Shown here: positions 19,492 to 36,959 of the stretch, piece by piece
How positions within the stretch are numbered: the first letter of the stretch is position 1
Layout: each line of letters starts with the position of its first letter
Origin: an uncultured Verrucomicrobiota bacterium
GTDB lineage: Bacteria > Verrucomicrobiota > Verrucomicrobiia > Limisphaerales > JADLHS01
Reading direction: 5' to 3'
Length of the DNA stretch: 36,959 nucleotides
Assembly: GCA_903828255.1 (NCBI GenBank)
Contig: CAIKLQ010000093.1
Coordinates: 1-36,959 of the forward strand
Notes under the pieces: generated by a model
Databases searched by the model: none
What the model was told of the DNA's origin: nothing
The model's input: only the letters and a program-made list of their open reading frames with translations
Translations under genes and position numbers: made by a program

Positions 19492-22257
19492 CTATTTTCC
19501 CAAGGCATTAGAGCTGTCGGCGACGGCCCTCTGAACCGGTGGAAGACTGTTCACATCGAACGGCATGGTGCCATCCGGGTGCATCCGATTGCCCGCCGGA
19601 TCAATGATCGTTGGCGTTACAAAGATCACAAGGTTACGCTTAAAGTTTTGAGTGGATTCACTGCGGAACAGTTTTCCAATCCACGGCAGATCCCCCAGCA
19701 CCGGCACTTTGTCTTTGTGTCGGGTCACGTTTTCAGAAATCAGCCCGCCCAGAACCACGGTCTGTCCATCCCATACAATAGCGCTGGTGGTAATTTGTCG
19801 AACGCGCGTATGCGGCAGCGGCAGTTGCGCGGTGATCGGGGTGCCGAGGCTATTGCCGGCCCCACCCTGGGCTTGCGGGATGAACGCGCCTGGATCGTCG
19901 TAGCGGACAAACTCGGTAATCGTGGGAATAATCGTCAGTTGGATCGTGTAACCGTCGGCCGAGATGTAAGGAATCACATCCAGCGTCGTGCCTTCTGGGA
20001 ACGGCGTGGTGGGATAATTAACCGTGGTGCCGACGGCACCGCCGCCACCACCTGTGTTCACAGTGGTCCCACCAGTACCGCCGCTGCCTCCGCTGGAGGT
20101 TTGGTTCTGCGAGACGCCGCTCACCAATGTTAAGATGTCCACAACCTGAATTTGGGCCTGGCGTCCGCTTGGGGTAAGCACCTCGGGCGCGTTGAGCAAA
20201 TCCACGCCGCTGCGCTGTTCCAATGCCTTCAAAACCACTCGAAATTGCGGATCGGTCAGGATTCCGCTGATGGTAGCCAAAGCCGGCACGTCCCGTGGGC
20301 TGGAACCCTGCCCACCCCCAACAACATTCCGCAAACTACCGGAGAGCAAAGCATCCGTGGCGGCAGGCGCAATGGCGGTCCCAGCGAGCGTACTGCCGGG
20401 GAAAGTCCCCTCCGGATTAGCCGTGCTCGGATTACCGGTGAACGACGGCTGCGTCCCAGCCGAACCAACGACGTTGTTTCCAAAAAACATGTTACCCAGA
20501 AACCAATCGAAACCCAAGGCTTTAACGTCACCCTGGGTGATTTCAACAAACTTGGCCTTGATGCTGATCTGATGCGGAACAATGTTCAGTACTTGGATGA
20601 TCTTCTCAATGTCGTCCAGGTCTTGCAGCGAGGCCTTGACGAGCAAGACTCCAGCGCGGTCATTCCAGAAGACAGATTTCGGAGGGTTCAAATCTATGCC
20701 CATGAGCGTGAAGAAATTCCGAACGGCGGCATGAACTTGCTCCATGTTGTTGGTCTTGGTCAAGAAACTCACGCCACCACCACCACCGCCACCACCACTT
20801 TGTCCGCCACCTTGTCCCCCGCCCCCACCGCCACCCTGGGTGCTGCCGCCAGCAACATTGACGCGCGGAATACTGACACCGCCACCACCCTGACCCCCCT
20901 GGCCACCTTGGCTACCGCCACCACCACCGCCACCACCGCCACCGCCACCACTTTGGCCGCCACCCCCACCGCCACTGCTATTGCCACCAAGGTCTCCGAC
21001 GACGAGTGATCCGACACTTTCCAAACCCTGGTAGAACGTGTTCGGGTCCACCTTATACTGCCGCATGAACAGCGGAGAATTCTCCGCTCCTTTCAGGGAG
21101 AACATAATGCCCCACTCTTCGATCGAGTATTTGAGCGGTTTGTCCGCCACCTGGATAATAATGTCCAAGACATCCGCCAATCGCATGTCGCTTAGCGCAG
21201 GGTTAATTTTCACCGGAATCGAGGCAACGTCCACGGCTTCCTGCGGCGGGGCTGCGACTGGGAGCCCGGTGCTCGGATCAATTGCAGTGAGTCCGGCTGG
21301 TGCCGCAGCCTGTGAGTTCGGATTAATTATGAAATTGAGACCCTTTTTAAGTGGGTCGCGCTTTCGAGTTTCGTCACTAAGTGTTCGAACCACCTCGCTA
21401 AGGGGAAGCCCGTCGAAGAACACACTGTCCAACTTAGTTGAGTTAAGTTTGCTGACAACCATCTGGCGACCACTACCAGTCCAAATCAGAGTATTGGTTG
21501 CAAAAGGGTTTGGCACGGGAAGATTTTCTCCTTTGTTCGCCGGCGACCAGTCCTGCTCGACCTTCACCGTGGAGTCCTTGGAATTTTGTTCGCGCAGGCG
21601 ATCGGCCTGACGATAGCGACTCTCTTTTACGAAACTGAGATAGTAAAACGCAGCTTGGTTTTCCGGATCTAGTTTTAGCGCTGCTTTCAATTCCTTTTCC
21701 GCCTCATCAATCTTGCCCATTTCCAACAAAAGTTTCCCGTTTTGGACATGGGTGCCAGCCGACGCTTTCTCTCCTTGTATCTGCCCGATGCGCTCCAGCG
21801 TCTCCGCATTCGGCTCCCGCCCTTTCAACGAGTCCAGAACGACCTCGTTCTCCTTCATGAGCGACAGACCGGCGGCATTCTGGGGATCAACTTTGAGCAC
21901 CAACGATAGGTGGGTCTTGGCCTCGTGGTAATCGCCATTTTTTTGCGCGGCGCGGGCAAGTTCGAGTTGTATGCTGGCGTAGCCGGAGATGGTCGCCGAT
22001 TTCTCAGCATCAATGTTGTTGCCGATGCCCAGCACAAGTTTATACGCCTCCTCGTACAGCTTCGCGGCCGCAGGGATGTCCTTGCGCGCCTCGGCGGCTT
22101 GGGCATCCGCGATTTTTTGTCGGAGGGTGACCCGATCCGCTTCGCGTTGAACGGCTTGTTTGATGGCGGTGTCGGTGGCGGTAGATTGAGCCCGGCCGAT
22201 GACGACGGTCCCACTCAGGACGATCAGACCGATGGAGAGGTAGGCTGCTTTAGTCAT
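19492..22257 (-). CDS. Secretin (GspD/PilQ superfamily), Amuc_1098-like, with TPR N-terminus
   Basis: The outer-membrane pore of a type IV pilus or type II secretion-like machine. It has a signal peptide (AYLSIGLIVLSGTVVIGRA). A TPR-like helical region (about 45-225) has two repeats, with AAKLYEEAYKL and AEKELKAALKLDPENQAAFY. N-domains follow at about 280-420, then a Gly-rich linker (about 424-496), another N-domain (about 500-570), and the secretin domain ending with VPVLGDLPWIGKLFRS and NLVIFVTPTIID. The 921-aa length is long for the family because of the TPR part and the glycine tracts; a second one lies inside the secretin domain at about 735-765. It is fourth in the operon, 33 bp after its neighbour. 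The TPR region may replace a separate pilotin or TPR protein. That is inference. Confidence 0.95.
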   Translation of the reverse strand: MTKAAYLSIGLIVLSGTVVIGRAQSTATDTAIKQAVQREADRVTLRQKIADAQAAEARKDIPAAAKLYEEAYKLVLGIGNNIDAEKSATISGYASIQLELARAAQKNGDYHEAKTHLSLVLKVDPQNAAGLSLMKENEVVLDSLKGREPNAETLERIGQIQGEKASAGTHVQNGKLLLEMGKIDEAEKELKAALKLDPENQAAFYYLSFVKESRYRQADRLREQNSKDSTVKVEQDWSPANKGENLPVPNPFATNTLIWTGSGRQMVVSKLNSTKLDSVFFDGLPLSEVVRTLSDETRKRDPLKKGLNFIINPNSQAAAPAGLTAIDPSTGLPVAAPPQEAVDVASIPVKINPALSDMRLADVLDIIIQVADKPLKYSIEEWGIMFSLKGAENSPLFMRQYKVDPNTFYQGLESVGSLVVGDLGGNSSGGGGGGQSGGGGGGGGGGGGSQGGQGGQGGGGVSIPRVNVAGGSTQGGGGGGGQGGGQSGGGGGGGGVSFLTKTNNMEQVHAAVRNFFTLMGIDLNPPKSVFWNDRAGVLLVKASLQDLDDIEKIIQVLNIVPHQISIKAKFVEITQGDVKALGFDWFLGNMFFGNNVVGSAGTQPSFTGNPSTANPEGTFPGSTLAGTAIAPAATDALLSGSLRNVVGGGQGSSPRDVPALATISGILTDPQFRVVLKALEQRSGVDLLNAPEVLTPSGRQAQIQVVDILTLVSGVSQNQTSSGGSGGTGGTTVNTGGGGGAVGTTVNYPTTPFPEGTTLDVIPYISADGYTIQLTIIPTITEFVRYDDPGAFIPQAQGGAGNSLGTPITAQLPLPHTRVRQITTSAIVWDGQTVVLGGLISENVTRHKDKVPVLGDLPWIGKLFRSESTQNFKRNLVIFVTPTIIDPAGNRMHPDGTMPFDVNSLPPVQRAVADSSNALGK
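20773..20987. repeat. Low-complexity GGN/NCC tract encoding polyglycine in the secretin
   Basis: On the plus strand this is mostly CCACCG/CCACCA triplets, with islands encoding SIPRVNVAGGS and Gln-rich spacers. It encodes about 70 residues, over two thirds glycine. Triplet slippage here would change the linker length without breaking the frame. Confidence 0.85.
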
Positions 22258-22290
22258 GGATTCGCTTCAGTTACTAAAAATTAGCCGCAC

Positions 22291-23121
22291 TCAAGGGGCG
22301 GCAGTGTAGGGTCTGGGTGTTTTTTTGTTGTTCGACTTTGCGGATAATACAACTTCGTTCTTGCTGATGGCAACGACAATAAACGACTCACTTGCAATTA
22401 CGACGGCCGGCATACCGGGACCACCCGCACCAACCCGCTGCTTACTCCAAGTCTTGTTGTCCGGCGGATACTTGAGGTCGGCCTCGTAGCCGTCCACCCG
22501 TTTATATGGTTTTTCCTTGGATAGCGAAACGCGCTCGCCGGTGTCAGTCATTTCAATGACCAGTTCGGTCGGATTATCCGGCGGCCCCTTGACTTCCCGG
22601 AGGACGAACGTATCGGTCTTCCCGTTTAGCGGTGCGGGGTAGTGTTTGCGGGTGCGTTGGGAACTCTTCGCGGCGGCTTCCTTCTCCACGGTGAAGTCAT
22701 ATCGCGCGGACGTATCGGCGGTCGGCGGGGCCAACACCGCCTCGAACACGATGGTGGTGTAAAGTGGCGAAATCTTGATCACCTCGATCGCTTCTGGACC
22801 AATTTGGTTTCCCGACGAAAGTTTCCTCAGCGTCGTATTGTCCTCGCCTTTTCGCAGCCAAGGCAGCGTGTTAAATACCTTGTTCGAGTTCGAAAGGTCG
22901 AGGCAGCCCGCCCCGCCCATCCGTTCGATCAAGAAGGTAGATTTGCTGAGATCCAGCGCCTCCAACGGTTTGGCCGGTCGGTTGATGATTTCCTCGGACT
23001 GGGCCTGCAACTTCGCCCGCTCGCTTGGAATCATCAAGGTCAGAAAGGCCGCGCCCGCGGCCAGGCCCAGCAACACCACCCCCAGCAAAACTTTCTCGTA
23101 ATGTTTTTTTAGGAAATCCAT
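22291..23121 (-). CDS. Single-pass inner-membrane protein in the PilP/GspC position (Amuc_1099 position)
   Basis: With ATG 23121 as start the protein has 276 aa and begins MDFLKKHYEKVLLGVVLLGL, a short basic cytoplasmic tip and one membrane helix (about 8-30). The start at 23190 would overlap the upstream gene by about 60 bp and put Pro-rich residues in front of the helix. The rest is periplasmic, mixed alpha/beta, with a C-terminal SESFIVVAISKNEVVLSAKSNNKK. This resembles the short beta domains that PilP/GspC use to contact secretin N-domains. Sequence alone does not place it in PilP or GspC. The call rests on topology and on its place between the PilO-like gene and the secretin. Confidence 0.85.
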   Translation of the reverse strand: MDFLKKHYEKVLLGVVLLGLAAGAAFLTLMIPSERAKLQAQSEEIINRPAKPLEALDLSKSTFLIERMGGAGCLDLSNSNKVFNTLPWLRKGEDNTTLRKLSSGNQIGPEAIEVIKISPLYTTIVFEAVLAPPTADTSARYDFTVEKEAAAKSSQRTRKHYPAPLNGKTDTFVLREVKGPPDNPTELVIEMTDTGERVSLSKEKPYKRVDGYEADLKYPPDNKTWSKQRVGAGGPGMPAVVIASESFIVVAISKNEVVLSAKSNNKKTPRPYTAAP

Positions 23122-23128
23122 GCGCGAT

Positions 23129-24205
23129 TTATGGGGCGGCGGGGGCAGCGGGGACAGCTTGGGCAACCGACGTTTTACGGCTGACGCCAACTTTTACGAC
23201 CTGCACGAGCATCGTGACCTTTAGTTGTTTCTCGTTCAGCACCGCGCGAGGCGCGGTGGAAACGGGTGCGACCAATGGCGCGGCCAATGGCGGAGGCGTG
23301 TAAGCTTGGGGCGGGCGCATTCCACCACCATCCTTGCCCATGCCATATCTACCGCCATACCTCTCATTAAAGGCACTATTGGGCTGGGTTGGACGAGGGG
23401 CTTCCAGAACTGGCTGGTAAGTCATCACGGGTTGCACGGCCTCGACTACCGTAACAGGTGCCAGCTCAACATTGAAACTCTTGACGATGATTCCATGATG
23501 TGAACTTGCAAACCCGCACAACACTTGGGCGAGTTCCGGGGTGAAGCAGCGGAACGTGAACTGGTAGGGCGTCAGTGCAGCCAAATCGGTTTCTTCCGTT
23601 TTCTGATCAAGGTAATCGGTCATCTGCCCGGCTTGGTCATCGGGGGAAACCCGCTCGCGCTGGATGTTATCCAGCGCGTTGACCTTGGCGGCGATCAGCA
23701 CTTCGGACAAGACTTTGACTTCCCCAAGCTGCACCGCCAGTAGGGCGGGACTGCCGGGCGCGAACTTCATAAGGCTGCTCTGCTGCTGAAATGAGAAAGC
23801 ATACTTGGGGGGCAAGATAACGCTGGCATTTGTAGCCTCCCGCTGGAGGTAGGAAATAGTCCGGGACAAACTGTTGGCAAAAGCTTCCGCAGTCACATTG
23901 GTCTCATCCGGCCGGATGGCCGGGATGGCCGGGATGGCTACAAATTGAGTCTTGGCCTGTTCGTAAACCTTGCGCACGGTCTGCTGTTGTTCGCGCGCGG
24001 TCTTGATATTATCCACCTTGCTGCTGCCCGGATTGAGATTGAGGCCAGACAACCGTTTGAGGTCTGCGTATTTGGCGAGCAATTCCTCGCTGGCAGCGGT
24101 ATCGTGGCTGTAGCCGGTCCAAGTATAAAAACCGGCACCCACCATCAACAACAGCGCGACCGAGGCACCGATGACAAAGACTAAATTACGTTTGATCCAG
24201 TCCAT
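23129..24205 (-). CDS. PilO/GspM-like membrane protein, probable homologue of Akkermansia Amuc_1100
   Basis: ATG 24205 gives 358 aa, starting MDWIKRNLVFVIGASVALLL, one N-terminal membrane helix followed by a coiled coil (about 30-95) and two ferredoxin-like halves. It lies 1 bp after the stop of the PilM-PilN gene. A start at 24301 would overlap that gene by 95 bp. Similarity to Amuc_1100 is seen in layout: the membrane helix, a FANSLSRTISYLQ segment, a PPKYAFSF segment, a PALLAVQLGEVKVLSEVLIAA segment in parts, and a Pro/Ala-rich tail before the last strand (KVTMLVQVVKVG). Amuc_1100 is the abundant envelope protein of A. muciniphila, with a PilO/GspM-like fold. The homology is judged by eye from memory of that protein. 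Confidence 0.88.
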   Translation of the reverse strand: MDWIKRNLVFVIGASVALLLMVGAGFYTWTGYSHDTAASEELLAKYADLKRLSGLNLNPGSSKVDNIKTAREQQQTVRKVYEQAKTQFVAIPAIPAIRPDETNVTAEAFANSLSRTISYLQREATNASVILPPKYAFSFQQQSSLMKFAPGSPALLAVQLGEVKVLSEVLIAAKVNALDNIQRERVSPDDQAGQMTDYLDQKTEETDLAALTPYQFTFRCFTPELAQVLCGFASSHHGIIVKSFNVELAPVTVVEAVQPVMTYQPVLEAPRPTQPNSAFNERYGGRYGMGKDGGGMRPPQAYTPPPLAAPLVAPVSTAPRAVLNEKQLKVTMLVQVVKVGVSRKTSVAQAVPAAPAAP

Positions 24206-24206
24206 A

Positions 24207-26222
24207 TTACGGCGGAGCGGGCTGTGTAGTCGGATCGGCCGGCTCGACGGCGGGTTTGATTTTGTCGGACTCTTTGACTTTCCGGCTGACTGACATGACA
24301 AACGTGAAAGTAAGGTTGGTTTCGTCCACCCGGATCTGCTCCGCAGTCAACTCCGTTTTCAGTGGGTCGAGAAGCGCACATCCCTTCAATCCACTTCCTC
24401 GATTATCTTTCGAGGGGGCCTCGCCCTGAACGGCGTAGGCTAGTTCTTTATTCGCGGTCGCCGAGACACTGTCAAGACTGACGGCCCGGAAAGTAATCGT
24501 TATGGCGTTGGTATCAGGGGCCGCCGCGCCAACCGCCCCAGGGACACCTAGTTCGCCACCGGGAGCGGCCCCACCAAACCTGCCCGGCTCGCCTGGCAAA
24601 GCCATCGGACCTGGCCCGCGACCACCCGGCCCGATGCCGTAACGCTCCCGGAACATTTTCTGTCGAATCGCATCCTCCGCGCTAGGGGCACCGGTGGGTG
24701 CTGCGGGTGCGGCTGAAGCCCCACCAGATGGGTCCGCCGCCGCCGCCACTGAAGCCAAGTTTGGACAAGCCATCTGCTCAATCCACACGCCAGTATCCAC
24801 GCCGAGCTTCCGCTTATTGACCGCCTCAACGCGGATGAGAATCTCGCGAATTTCCTTCACCAAATCCACCCACTCATAACGGTCCCGGATCCAGCCCGTG
24901 AGTTTATCGAGCTGCTGCTGGCTGGTTTTGAGATCGCCACTCGCTTTCTTAAATTGCGTTTCTTTGGTCTGCAGCGGCGCGATTTGCGTATCCAGCTTCG
25001 CGGACTCGGCCTTCTTCACATCCGAGAGCTTCTCGAACAACAGCCCGACCGCGAAAGCCATCGCCACCAGACTGAAGACCGTGGCGATAAAATAGGGTTT
25101 CTTCTCGTTGAAACTCTGCCAGCGAAGCGTGCTGTCCGGCATCAGGTTCAGTTCCACGGGGCAATGTGCCAAGTTGCGCAGCCCCAAACCGACCACTTCG
25201 CCCAGCGCATGCGCCACCCGCGCCAGCTCTTCGAGGTTCACCCCGGAGTCAATCTGAACGGAACGGAAGGGATTAAAGTACTCGACCGGCACGTTGAGCT
25301 TCTCCGCAAAGAACTGTGCCGTGTAAGGCATGATGGACGCCCCGCCCGCCAAGAATAACCGCTGAGGCGCGGAACCGCCTTGTTGCCCGCGGTAAAACTG
25401 TAGCGTCTGATTCACCTGGATGTGCAGGCGCGTCATGAATTGGCGGGCAATCTTGGAAATCGCGGCTTGATGCGGGTTCTCCGGCTCTTCGTACGCGCCG
25501 CCCAAGCTGACAAAGCCCTCATCAATCTTGATCTTGTCCGCCTGATCGAATTTCAACTTCGCCTCGTTAGCGAAGTCCTGCGTGATGGAGTTCGCGCCCA
25601 AGTTGATGCTGCGGGAAAAAACCTTGCCTTTCTCGAAGAACAGAAGATTGCTGGTCTTGGCCCCAATATCGAGGAGCATGGTGCAATCTTCCAACTCGCC
25701 ATAGTTGTAGCGAAACGCATTGCACAAGGCCGCCGGCGAGACATCCGCCACTTGCAACTTCAGCCCGGACGTCGCCGCCACACGGAACAGCCCCTCGACA
25801 ATGTCTGCCTTGATGGCGACTAGCAAAACTTCCAATTCGCCGCTCGCCGTGGTGCCCAGAATCTGGTAATCCCAAACCACCTCCGCCAGCGGGAACGGGA
25901 CGTTTTGCTGCGCCTCGTATTGGATAATCTGGGTGACTTTGTTCGCCTCCACCGGCGGCAATTTCACAAACTTGGAAAACACTTGGAAGCCGGCCGCACA
26001 GACATTGACATCCTTGGACTTGATGCCGCGCTCCGCGATGACTTCCTGAAGCGCCTTGAGCAAAATAGCCTCGCGCTTCGTCTCCGACGAGGCATCCAAG
26101 CCCAGCGGCTTGATGACGAAGTGTTTCAGGCGCAGCCCGCCTGACTCGTTCACCTCAAACTCGGCGAGCTTGAGGCTACCTGCCCCAAAATCAACCGACA
26201 AGAATGACTTTACGTTCAACAT
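24207..26222 (-). CDS. PilM-PilN fusion, type IV pilus/T2SS assembly ATPase-fold protein
   Basis: A 671-aa protein. Residues 1-350 are an actin-like PilM domain (FLSVDFGAGSLKLAEFE near the start; phosphate-2 region MLLDIGAKTSNLLFFEKGK at about 182-200; LFLAGGASIMPYTAQFF at 289-305). It continues into a PilN-like part with VELNLMPDS, one membrane helix (about 375-396), a coiled coil (about 400-460) and a periplasmic ferredoxin-like region. The latter is split by a Gly/Pro/Ala-rich insert (about 505-585). In most bacteria PilM and PilN are separate proteins that bind through the PilN N-terminus, so fusing them fixes a 1:1 ratio. It is the first gene of the operon. Upstream on the minus strand a TTGACC lies at about 26310, but no good -10 box follows at the right distance. 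Confidence 0.95.
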   Translation of the reverse strand: MLNVKSFLSVDFGAGSLKLAEFEVNESGGLRLKHFVIKPLGLDASSETKREAILLKALQEVIAERGIKSKDVNVCAAGFQVFSKFVKLPPVEANKVTQIIQYEAQQNVPFPLAEVVWDYQILGTTASGELEVLLVAIKADIVEGLFRVAATSGLKLQVADVSPAALCNAFRYNYGELEDCTMLLDIGAKTSNLLFFEKGKVFSRSINLGANSITQDFANEAKLKFDQADKIKIDEGFVSLGGAYEEPENPHQAAISKIARQFMTRLHIQVNQTLQFYRGQQGGSAPQRLFLAGGASIMPYTAQFFAEKLNVPVEYFNPFRSVQIDSGVNLEELARVAHALGEVVGLGLRNLAHCPVELNLMPDSTLRWQSFNEKKPYFIATVFSLVAMAFAVGLLFEKLSDVKKAESAKLDTQIAPLQTKETQFKKASGDLKTSQQQLDKLTGWIRDRYEWVDLVKEIREILIRVEAVNKRKLGVDTGVWIEQMACPNLASVAAAADPSGGASAAPAAPTGAPSAEDAIRQKMFRERYGIGPGGRGPGPMALPGEPGRFGGAAPGGELGVPGAVGAAAPDTNAITITFRAVSLDSVSATANKELAYAVQGEAPSKDNRGSGLKGCALLDPLKTELTAEQIRVDETNLTFTFVMSVSRKVKESDKIKPAVEPADPTTQPAPP

Positions 26223-34709: not shown

Positions 34710-35735
34710 ATGACTTCCCGCGAACGAGTTTTGACCGCCCTAGCCCACCAGCAACCCGACCGGACGCCGCGCGATTTTTGGGCGGAACCGCCGGCGCTGA
34801 ATCGCTTGTTCCAGCATCTCGGTCACACGGATCAGGATCGTTTGCTGGACGATCTGGGCATTGACATCGCGCACCTCGAAGCGCCGCCCACACCGGAGCG
34901 CCCGCTCGGTGACGGCATCTTCCAAAACTTCTGGGGCGAACGATTCGTCTATCAAACCACGCCGTGGGGGCCGATGCGCGAGGACGTTCCCGGCACGCTG
35001 GCCGACGCGAAATCCTTCGCCGATCTGGAAGCTTTCGACTGGCCCACGCCAGACTGTCTGGACCGGTCACGCTTGCGGGAACAATGTCGCCGCCACGAAC
35101 CGCGGGCGCTGCTCTATGGGTTTGCCGATGTCTGGCAACGGCCCGCATTGGTGCGCGGCTGGGAAGGCATGTTCGTGGACATGGTGGAGCGGCCCGACTG
35201 GGTGCATTTCCTGGGGCGCAAATTCACCAATTTCTATCTGGAAGATTACACCCGCGCCGCGGAGATCACGGACGGGCGGATTGATCTTTACCTGCTCATC
35301 AGCGACCTCGGCAGCCAGCGCGGGCCGCTCATTTCCAAGGCGATGTTCGAGCAATTTGTCGCGCCCTATCTGAAGGAGATGATTGACCGCATCCATGCCC
35401 TGCGGGGACGGGTGTTGTTTCACAGTTGTGGCGCGATCACCGCCTTCATCCCGCGCCTTATTGAACTCGGCGTGGACGTTCTCGATCCGATCCAACCGGT
35501 TGGCCCCGACATGCAACCGGAGAAGTTGAAAGCGGCCTACGGGCGGCAACTCAGCTTCCACGGCGGGATTGATATGCAGCACCTGCTGCCGCACGGCACG
35601 CCCGAACAAGTGACCGCCGAGGCCCGCCGCTACGGCGAATTGCTCGGGGCTGGTGGCGGTTACATCCTCGGCCCGGCCCACTTGTTCCAGCCCGATGTGC
35701 CGCCGGAGAACATCCTGGCGGTCTATCGCGGGTGA
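34710..35735 (+). CDS. URO-D superfamily protein (MtaA/CmuA-like or related), not HemE
   Basis: A 341-aa protein of the uroporphyrinogen decarboxylase superfamily, which also includes corrinoid/methyl-transferring enzymes. The family start is SRERVLTALAHQQPDRTPRD. Later come VLFHSCGAITAFIPRLIELG, VDVLDPIQPVGPDM, LSFHGGIDMQHLLPHGTPEQ and GGGYILGPAHLFQPDVPPEN. The HxCG segment puts a Cys and a His where methyltransferase-type members bind zinc. True HemE has other residues, RxxxxRQAGRYL near the N-terminus, which are absent here. The substrate is unknown. Such genes are frequent as lone paralogues in Planctomycetes and Verrucomicrobia. It is followed directly by the 20/21-bp array. Confidence 0.9.
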   Translation: MTSRERVLTALAHQQPDRTPRDFWAEPPALNRLFQHLGHTDQDRLLDDLGIDIAHLEAPPTPERPLGDGIFQNFWGERFVYQTTPWGPMREDVPGTLADAKSFADLEAFDWPTPDCLDRSRLREQCRRHEPRALLYGFADVWQRPALVRGWEGMFVDMVERPDWVHFLGRKFTNFYLEDYTRAAEITDGRIDLYLLISDLGSQRGPLISKAMFEQFVAPYLKEMIDRIHALRGRVLFHSCGAITAFIPRLIELGVDVLDPIQPVGPDMQPEKLKAAYGRQLSFHGGIDMQHLLPHGTPEQVTAEARRYGELLGAGGGYILGPAHLFQPDVPPENILAVYRG

Positions 35736-35770
35736 ACCTGGCGAACCGTCCGGGCGGGGCGATTTTCGCC

Positions 35771-35980
35771 CGTGCGCGCAAAAATCGCTTCCCGCACCCC
35801 GGAAACCGTTCCGTGCGCGGCGGGGCCGGTTCCGTGCGGGCGAATATCAACCCGTGCGGCCATTTTCCCTTCCGTGCGGCCAAAATTCGATCTGTGCGGG
35901 CAACGGATCGTTCCGTGCAAGCCGGCTTTGATTCCGTGCGGGCGAAAATCCATTTGTGCGGCTAGAATCCATTCCGTGCG
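35771..35980. repeat. Array of eleven degenerate 20/21-bp units with core CCGTGCGG
   Basis: The core CCGTGC(G/A)(G/C) or a close variant starts at 35771, 35792, 35812, 35832, 35852, 35872, 35892, 35913, 35934, 35954 and 35974. Steps are 20 or 21 bp, about two DNA helical turns. The 12-14 bases between cores vary but often end in ATT or TT. The second unit is diverged (CCCGCACC). GATTTTCGCCCG at 35762-35773 is the exact inverse of CGGGCGAAAATC at 35939-35950. The mixed 20/21 period breaks any reading frame, so it is probably not coding. The stretch 35985-36196 after it has no gene. Confidence 0.85.
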
Positions 35981-36196
35981 CGGTATAGGTAGCGGAGGGT
36001 CGGCAGACCGCCGCATTCTTCTCTCACCCGCCCAGGTGTCCGCGCTCTGCCGAGAGGTCGCCTCGGGGGAACGGTACATGGAGAGAACAATCAATTCAAC
36101 GGCGCGCAATTCCGGCGTGGCATCTGGCCGAAGGCTTTTCAGGCCAAACAACCTGCCCGAGACAATGTGTTTTTGGAGGATTGTTGGCCTAGCTTC

Positions 36197-36959
36197 TCAA
36201 TTCGGTCGGAGTGTCGGTGCGTTTGTGGAATCGGCTGCATCCGAGTCCAGAATCTCCATTGCTAGCTTTCGTATGAGAATATCCACAAACCGGCCCAAAC
36301 GCTCCCGATCTCGAACTGCTTCGAAGTAGGGCTTGTATTGACTAACGTCCGCTCCGGGTTCATTTGAGATCGAAGAAGTATTGGTTGCCACGGCATCGGG
36401 CACACGGAGGTCTTCGGCCAGCTCCTTCACCCTTTGGTCGGCCTCCAGCCACTTTGCCTTTTCTTCCCTCCATCTGCTTTTGAGTGTCTCGATTCCACTT
36501 GCGAGTATCGGGCTGCCGGGTTCGACATTCGGGGCAGAGATCGAATTCTTGCTCTGTTGATTCTCCAATTCTTGGTTGCGTGCCCTGATTATTCCAACTT
36601 CACCACGCAGCTTGAGCAGTTCGCGAGTATTGCGATTCAAAAGTTCATTTTCCTCCCGCAATATGGCGAGTTGGCGCAGAGTGTCGTCGCGCACTTGCTG
36701 CAACTGTTGGACTTGGTCGGTCAATGGCTCTTGCTGTTGTCGGAGCGATTGAAGTTTATCGCGAAATTGCGAGGCCAGGCGCGCTTCGTAAATTCCTGCG
36801 CCGACGGCGACGGCGAGCGCGGCGGTGATGAGCGTCTTGTGCAATGTGGTCATGGCGACAGTTTTGATGACGGTGGCGGTCGTGGCGGTGGCGAGGGTTG
36901 TTCCCGCGAGGGCGGCGGTCGAAAGCGTGGCGGCCAAACCGGCGGGCGCGAGGGGAACG
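36197..36959 (-). CDS. C-terminal membrane and coiled-coil tail of a probable ECF sigma factor fusion, cut by the window
   Basis: The frame is open to the right edge (upstream residues read VPLAPAG), so the 5' part is missing. What is present starts with an Ala/Thr-rich stretch (LAATLSTAALAGTTLATATT), then KTVAMTTLHKTLITAALAVAVGAGIYEAR with one membrane helix, then a coiled coil of about 80 residues rich in Gln, Leu and Arg (DQVQQLQQVRDDTLRQLAIL), then a helical C-terminus. This tail is what I associate with verrucomicrobial sigma-70/ECF proteins, in which it follows regions 2 and 4. The sigma part itself is not seen, so that identity is inferred. A TTG at 36937 looks like a start codon but is internal. 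Confidence 0.7.
   Translation of the reverse strand, partial: VPLAPAGLAATLSTAALAGTTLATATTATVIKTVAMTTLHKTLITAALAVAVGAGIYEARLASQFRDKLQSLRQQQEPLTDQVQQLQQVRDDTLRQLAILREENELLNRNTRELLKLRGEVGIIRARNQELENQQSKNSISAPNVEPGSPILASGIETLKSRWREEKAKWLEADQRVKELAEDLRVPDAVATNTSSISNEPGADVSQYKPYFEAVRDRERLGRFVDILIRKLAMEILDSDAADSTNAPTLRPN

Follow-up and report, generated by a model that had tools for sequence, protein, structure and literature searches.

What purpose is served by a row of eleven short cores, repeated every 20 or 21 bp in the DNA between two genes, is the question raised by a locus near the end of contig CAIKLQ010000093.1 from an uncultured Verrucomicrobiota bacterium of the order Limisphaerales. The window is the whole stretch of DNA analyzed, 36,959 nucleotides in length, and its contig is C93 of genome G000. 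The features of the locus are as follows.

34710-35735, plus strand: gene for a URO-D family protein (PF01208), with its stop codon 35 bp before the array.
35761-35772: inverted copy, 12 bases long (GATTTTCGCCCG), of a segment of unit 9 (35939-35950), at the left edge of the array.
35770-35981, plus strand: eleven-unit array, the unit being an 8-bp core CCGTGCGG and a 12-13 bp AT-containing spacer.
35791-35810, plus strand: unit 2 of the array, with the degenerate core CCCGCACC.
35832-35953, plus strand: units 4-9, the best conserved part of the array, with spacers homologous unit by unit with those of other copies.
36197-36937, minus strand: convergent downstream gene for a protein without assignment, which is not a member of the array-linked family described below.

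The array is intergenic, with ~212 bp separating it from the end of the convergent gene. The units start at positions 35770, 35791, 35811, 35832, 35852, 35872, 35892, 35913, 35934, 35954, and 35974, with the last core occupying 35974-35981, and the steps in order are 21, 20, 21, 20, 20, 20, 21, 21, 20, and 20 (204 bp, mean 20.4). The initial annotation described eleven cores at a spacing of 20 or 21 bp, which is confirmed for their positions and is only partly true of their sequences, as four units (35832, 35852, 35872, and 35934) match CCGTGCGG exactly, a further four differ from it at one position and two at two positions (CCGTGCAA and TTGTGCGG), and the core of unit 2 is degenerate. Chains of 8-mers in the array (two mismatches allowed, step 20-21 ± 1) extend to 9 units, whereas no chain exceeds 5 units among 1000 dinucleotide shuffles of 35701-36050 or 3 units in the remainder of the window. 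The array is real and far above chance expectation. With up to one mismatch, CCGTGCGG has 66 matches in the window against 75 expected and is not over-represented; the arrangement alone is special. Tandem Repeats Finder calls only 35931-35980 within the array. The 12-base inverted copy, which had been taken to close the array on its left side, is present but is not conserved, being absent from the left edges of the other array copies with which it was compared, and is probably incidental.

The proposal that all cores face one side of the helix is only roughly correct. At 10.5 bp per turn the 20.4-bp step drifts by ~20 degrees per unit, and an exact constant-phase order of the 20s and 21s was rejected because the order is not tighter than a random one. 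Intrinsic curvature as a conserved property was also rejected, with a wedge model placing the window array straighter than most of the background; some arrays with other cores are predicted by the model to be curved. Substitutions between copies fall evenly over the three codon positions, which excludes a coding repeat and agrees with the earlier remark that the frame is not kept. One antisense frame is open in all three array copies compared, by happenstance. RNA structure was rejected as the nature of the array, as for both strands the folding energy is no better than in shuffled sequence (z -0.2 and +0.8), the array copies show almost no covariation and Rfam gives no match. The same folding result sets the array apart from REP/BIME elements, for which a stable hairpin is the mark.

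Searching for the core with its 20/21 spacing in the rest of the genome and in relatives had been suggested as a check. Copies were sought by a pattern search and then with a sequence-only model, R1 (214 positions, built from three gap-free copies), in genomes that are mostly draft bins; R1 covers one core type, and array-negative genomes may hold other cores. The search recovers the window array and homologs on contig C983 of its own genome, in G085 (family f24), and in G212, G213, G220, G248, and G252 of genus g47 in family f43. Six CCGTGCGG copies from three families (the window copy, one on C983, and four in two other families) can be aligned over 212 bp with no gap. The mean difference among the six is 0.17 in the cores and 0.41 in the spacers, in keeping with the initial suggestion of a repeat that has drifted with the core under selection. 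The spacers of one array are little alike, and they resemble the same-position spacers of other copies (0.56-0.62) more than other spacers (0.44-0.47), a position-specific match reached in at most 28 of 5000 permutations (p <= 0.006, three copies). A similar variant of unit 2, CCCGCAGCCC, occupies the same place in G000:C983 and G212:C264, and this odd unit common to some copies indicates that the array is inherited as a whole. Position-matched spacers and gap-free copies lead to the same view of whole arrays passed on with step and cores kept and the rest drifting. The absence of any gap at such divergence would be hard to explain without a constraint on spacing. Two findings had been named in advance as arguing against the initial reading, namely loss of the spacing in relatives and an array that is coding there. 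Neither is seen, with the relatives keeping the spacing without an indel as the spacers drift and the related copies showing no coding signal.

The core CCGTGCGG is one of several. Arrays of the same build in genus g47 carry the cores TTTGCGCGG, TTGCGACG, GTGCAG, or CAGTGCGG, and two core types can adjoin each other (L285 and L286). Several same-step arrays of unlike sequence occur per genome, as illustrated by the core common to C93 and C983 and that of C727 in the own genome, and relatives are built likewise. A survey of lags in a ~1.0-Mb sample, some segments of which were picked because of an array, gave exact-step chains of at least 6 units at lag 21 (n = 4), its harmonic 42 (n = 2), and lag 36 (n = 1); a one-base tolerance adds scattered chains at other lags, mainly in G048. 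A pattern scan with the core GTGCGG returned mostly simple 5-, 7-, and 10-bp repeats among the matches listed, together with at least two Limisphaerales contigs (L093 and L149). Weak R1 matches (E 1e-4 to 1e-2) in other families are mostly ordinary-looking, and those in G028 include 21-bp arrays with other cores. This genome, from another family, has 21-bp arrays with the palindrome-like cores TTCCGTGTGCAAGGAA, GGTCGTGCGACC, and GTTGGnGnCAAC at L175:8474-8670, L176:1549-1766, and L215:18244-18534, and the stretches of it that were examined contain no member of the linked protein family. A comparison of the window array with phage records gave a single chance-level match of 31 bp, and 72,556 plasmid records gave none.

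The main fact lying beyond the view of the initial annotation is that such arrays stand upstream of one uncharacterized gene family, each gene having a core of its own. On C983 the array ends 122 bp before a gene on the same strand whose product has 224 residues, and homologs of this protein adjoin three further arrays (L284, L295, and L299). The family is present in 13 of the 313 genomes of the order. Each of the 18 full-length homologs in the order is preceded on its own strand by a 20-22 bp array, the end of which is 65-480 bp from the gene; under strict settings the arrays of 15 reach 6 units and the remaining three (L315, L319, and L320) are weak with 4-5 units, arrays of fewer than 6 units being close to noise. 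The cores differ from gene to gene and the step is constant. One homolog from another family of the class (G588) is preceded by 14 units of exactly 21 bp. Within the Acidobacteriota, 8 genomes besides G608 carry the protein family, and in G758 there are ten members, most of them preceded by arrays with a 21-22 bp step and cores that are unlike; several Acidobacteriota homologs are without an array.

Counted as at least 6 units in the 600 bp upstream, arrays accompany 16 of 19 homologs in the Verrucomicrobiota and 7 of 22 in the Acidobacteriota (23/41), compared with 0/41 in the 600 bp downstream and 2/1500 random windows of the order, which are from Verrucomicrobiota only and thus leave the Acidobacteriota figure with the downstream control alone. 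The enrichment (Fisher p ~1e-37 against random windows and 3e-9 against downstream) overstates independence because the homologs are related, yet the cores are unlike and the two phyla far apart. In this count exact-step chains occur only at lags 20-22 and 41-42. A putative sigma-70-like promoter (TTGC, ~17 nt, ATAATCGCC) is visible by eye between the array and the start codon of many family genes. For the protein itself, Pfam, NCBIfam, PHROGs, PADLOC, and the PDB gave no match of substance, so it carries no DNA-binding domain recognizable from Pfam, NCBIfam, PHROGs, or the PDB. The Acidobacteriota members are strongly basic (pI ~9-11), and those of the Verrucomicrobiota are mostly near neutral (~6-9.6). 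Phage and plasmid comparisons of the protein gave no convincing match, and the viral contigs searched contain no copy of it; a phage or plasmid element was rejected since neither array nor protein matches convincingly.

Arrays without a gene follow the gene in their distribution. Six of the seven genomes with strong CCGTGCGG arrays have the family gene, compared with 13 of 313 overall (hypergeometric p ~1e-8, with array and gene searches drawing slightly different genome sets), and the exception, G220, has eight array matches and is not among the genomes reported with the gene. TGCGACG-core arrays are found in 9 of 13 gene-bearing genomes, linked arrays being counted in the nine, against none of the 12 in which the gene was not found, and some lie on contigs where no gene is seen in G210 (C169 and C241), G236 (C3), G239 (C71), and G252 (C165 and C176). 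In G126 (L272) a gene remnant sits beside an orphan array. Gene-less arrays are thus mostly in gene-carrying genomes. The window array has no family gene directly downstream and is therefore termed an orphan; a search for a remnant of the linked gene at this array found none. In the protein tree the gene of the own genome pairs (support 95/92) with that of G212, a member of family f43 with the same core, in a clade that is mostly f43, and the cores of the sisters L311 and L317 are unlike. Array and gene are both absent from the searched relatives in the own genus and family. The pairing with G212 suggests that array, core, and gene were transferred together between families.

The G000 bin (8.9 Mb, 1053 contigs, contamination 6.3%) is large, its sister genome having 4.5 Mb. 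A URO-D gene 94-95% identical to that of the window is present on C359 of the same bin with no array after it, and because the intergenic DNA there does not align, C359 is not a clean empty site. The second URO-D copy and the size of the bin suggest that it contains two strains, or else a large duplication. Misplacement of the window contig from f43, the family in which the array is most frequent, was rejected, as its sigma-54 protein is 82% identical to that of the sister G001 and 71-73% identical to those of f43. Elsewhere in the window, a pilus or secretion cluster occupies 19492-26222 on the minus strand, with a secretin with TPR at 19492-22257 and a PilM-like protein at 24207-26222, and the region 32162-34180 encodes a response regulator receiver with PAS domains and a SpoIIE phosphatase domain.

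Within the broader idea of an array of protein-binding sites, which remains the best-supported reading of the sequence, the window array is most likely the orphan of a module made of array and gene, a helix-phased row of sites for the protein of that module, and we hold this with confidence a little above even. A full module consists of an array (~7-17 units, step 20-22 bp), the promoter-like sequence, and the gene (~200-225 residues), with each gene having its own core, common to the units of its array; for core CCGTGCGG the full module of the own genome is that on C983. The step near two turns, the core, and the orientation are kept, and spacer sequence, curvature, and RNA folding are not, which points to double-stranded DNA read by a protein at one core per two turns. 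As each gene has its own core at a common step, the simplest reader would be the product of the gene. The array would then present ~eleven equally phased sites on which the protein, or a complex containing it, may assemble cooperatively, with the core as the part that is read, contacts between neighbors setting the two-turn step, and the sequence of the spacer mattering little. Binding to a gene-linked array may act on the gene itself, either as auto-control or through a nucleoprotein structure, and orphan arrays such as that of the window would be remote sites for the same protein. We infer the binding, its cooperativity, and its effect from these patterns. Counting against this reading are the lack of a recognizable DNA-binding domain, the mostly near-neutral charge of the Verrucomicrobiota members, the window array with neither gene nor remnant beside it, the array matches in G220, the Acidobacteriota homologs that have no array, and the unlike cores of L311 and L317.

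The wider proposal, put forward tentatively and at somewhat less than an even chance, is of an undescribed two-part system in at least two phyla in which family genes have private phased arrays, the cognate protein reads the core, orphans are remote sites, and up to ten genes occur per genome. Catalogues from many bacteria list repeats with a fixed length of 20-21 nt and variable sequence, with neither function nor partner assigned, and a gene family is now tied to such arrays in two phyla, the first concrete handle on their possible purpose. As the cores are particular to the genes, function becomes a direct question of binding. Should the protein indeed read its own core, the module would represent a new type, DNA-organizing or self-addressing, and the orphan arrays would mark its targets on the chromosome.

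A mobile element, with the array as a structural part for spreading, the protein as a mobility or maintenance factor, and the orphans as remnants or gene-less passengers, is an unlikely explanation, although it accommodates the copies at unrelated places, the sporadic distribution across families, the likely transfer between families, the gene remnant beside the G126 orphan (L272), and the 94% identical gene on C359 that no array follows. Neither common flanks nor terminal repeats are seen, the protein contains no recognized recombinase or transposase domain, and the unalignable DNA at C359 yields no clean empty site or target duplication. Step and core are moreover kept over long times, which would not be expected of dead passengers. 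Slippage can create tandem arrays, and the low similarity of spacers within an array would agree with a neutral satellite that has since decayed, linked to the gene by descent only. This is very improbable, as cores are kept while spacers drift, no indel has entered six old copies, the steps are 20-22 bp only, and the gene linkage extends over two phyla with unlike cores. That the array acts as RNA, either as small RNAs or as a sponge, is scarcely more probable. Here the array precedes the promoter-like sequence of the linked gene, folding energy is no better than that of shuffles, covariation is nearly nil, Rfam has no match, and there is no evident reason for an RNA to hold a 20-21 step without indels; the constant orientation to the linked gene and the transcription of repeats of a related 52-nt class in Bacillus coagulans (PMC8161180) would favor this explanation.

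In ParMRC partition systems, ParR binds the parC repeats, which are phased direct repeats beside a small-protein gene, and in plasmid pSK41 20-bp repeats form the centromere. The iterons of plasmid origins have a conserved core and recur as direct repeats at intervals of some two helical turns. The arrays share the direct repeats, the two-turn distance, and the conserved core with iterons but have no recognized Rep protein, lie in copies at many unrelated places, and match no plasmid. A centromere-like site for segregation or for anchoring the nucleoid, comparable to parC bound by ParR and with the protein as adaptor, would account for phased tandem sites beside a small-protein gene and for different specificities in one genome, in line with the centromere repeats of pSK41. 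Different ParMRC specificities are reported to coexist in Clostridium perfringens plasmids (PMC9426499). Such a site is nevertheless quite improbable, as no ParM, ParA, or TubZ homolog is recognized beside the copies examined, no plasmid matches, there are several modules per genome (up to ten) with orphan arrays among them, and many relatives have none. Pfam scans of the array neighbors reveal no rep, parM, or parR gene; several of these neighbors have no Pfam domain, so a very divergent ParR is possible. The iteron and centromere versions of the initial annotation are accordingly not borne out, with no replication or partition gene recognized beside the copies, no plasmid match, and only the chance-level phage match. 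TIGR-Tas and CRISPR arrays likewise alternate short constant parts with variable parts. TIGR-Tas was rejected, as no Nop-domain protein is present in the 13 genomes tested and archaeal controls were positive, and CRISPR was set aside because the spacers are homologous by position in three places, and hence inherited and not acquired guides.

The closest described counterpart is the class of constant 20-21 nt repeats that Subirana and Messeguer report in Bacillus and other bacteria (PMC8161180 and earlier work); they leave its function unassigned, point to two helical turns, and propose a polymerizing protein or small RNAs. The window array has the attributes of this class, with at least four constant-step units, a common short sequence (unit 2 excepted), and a non-coding position, and in both cases several unlike families occur per genome. 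The class is given without a linked gene in the parts consulted (PMC8161180), whereas the arrays here precede genes of a single protein family in both phyla; unlike the class as described there, they are preserved across families unit for unit with no indels, and their orphans go with the gene. No gene partner of such arrays was found in the open-access (non-subscription) literature searched. The array class is thus already described, and the link to a gene is new here.

Arrays occur in other settings also. On the Bacillales contigs L082, L068, L144, L165, and L137, arrays of 20-21 bp step combine cores such as TATGTGCGGATAA with spacers that are AT-rich and variable, resembling the published 20-21 nt class, and the linked protein family is absent from these five loci. 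The Acidobacteria bin JADZCN01 (L069, L085, and L128) contains several arrays with an exact 10-bp step (GTGCGGGCAG/GTGCGAACGG), equivalent to one helical turn, and the same genome has a member of the linked family at a contig edge. In G163 (L301:9562-9778), 11 units of exactly 21 bp (CAGTCCGTGAGGRAAGTTCCC) are located ~155 bp before a 430-aa ORF from outside the linked family.
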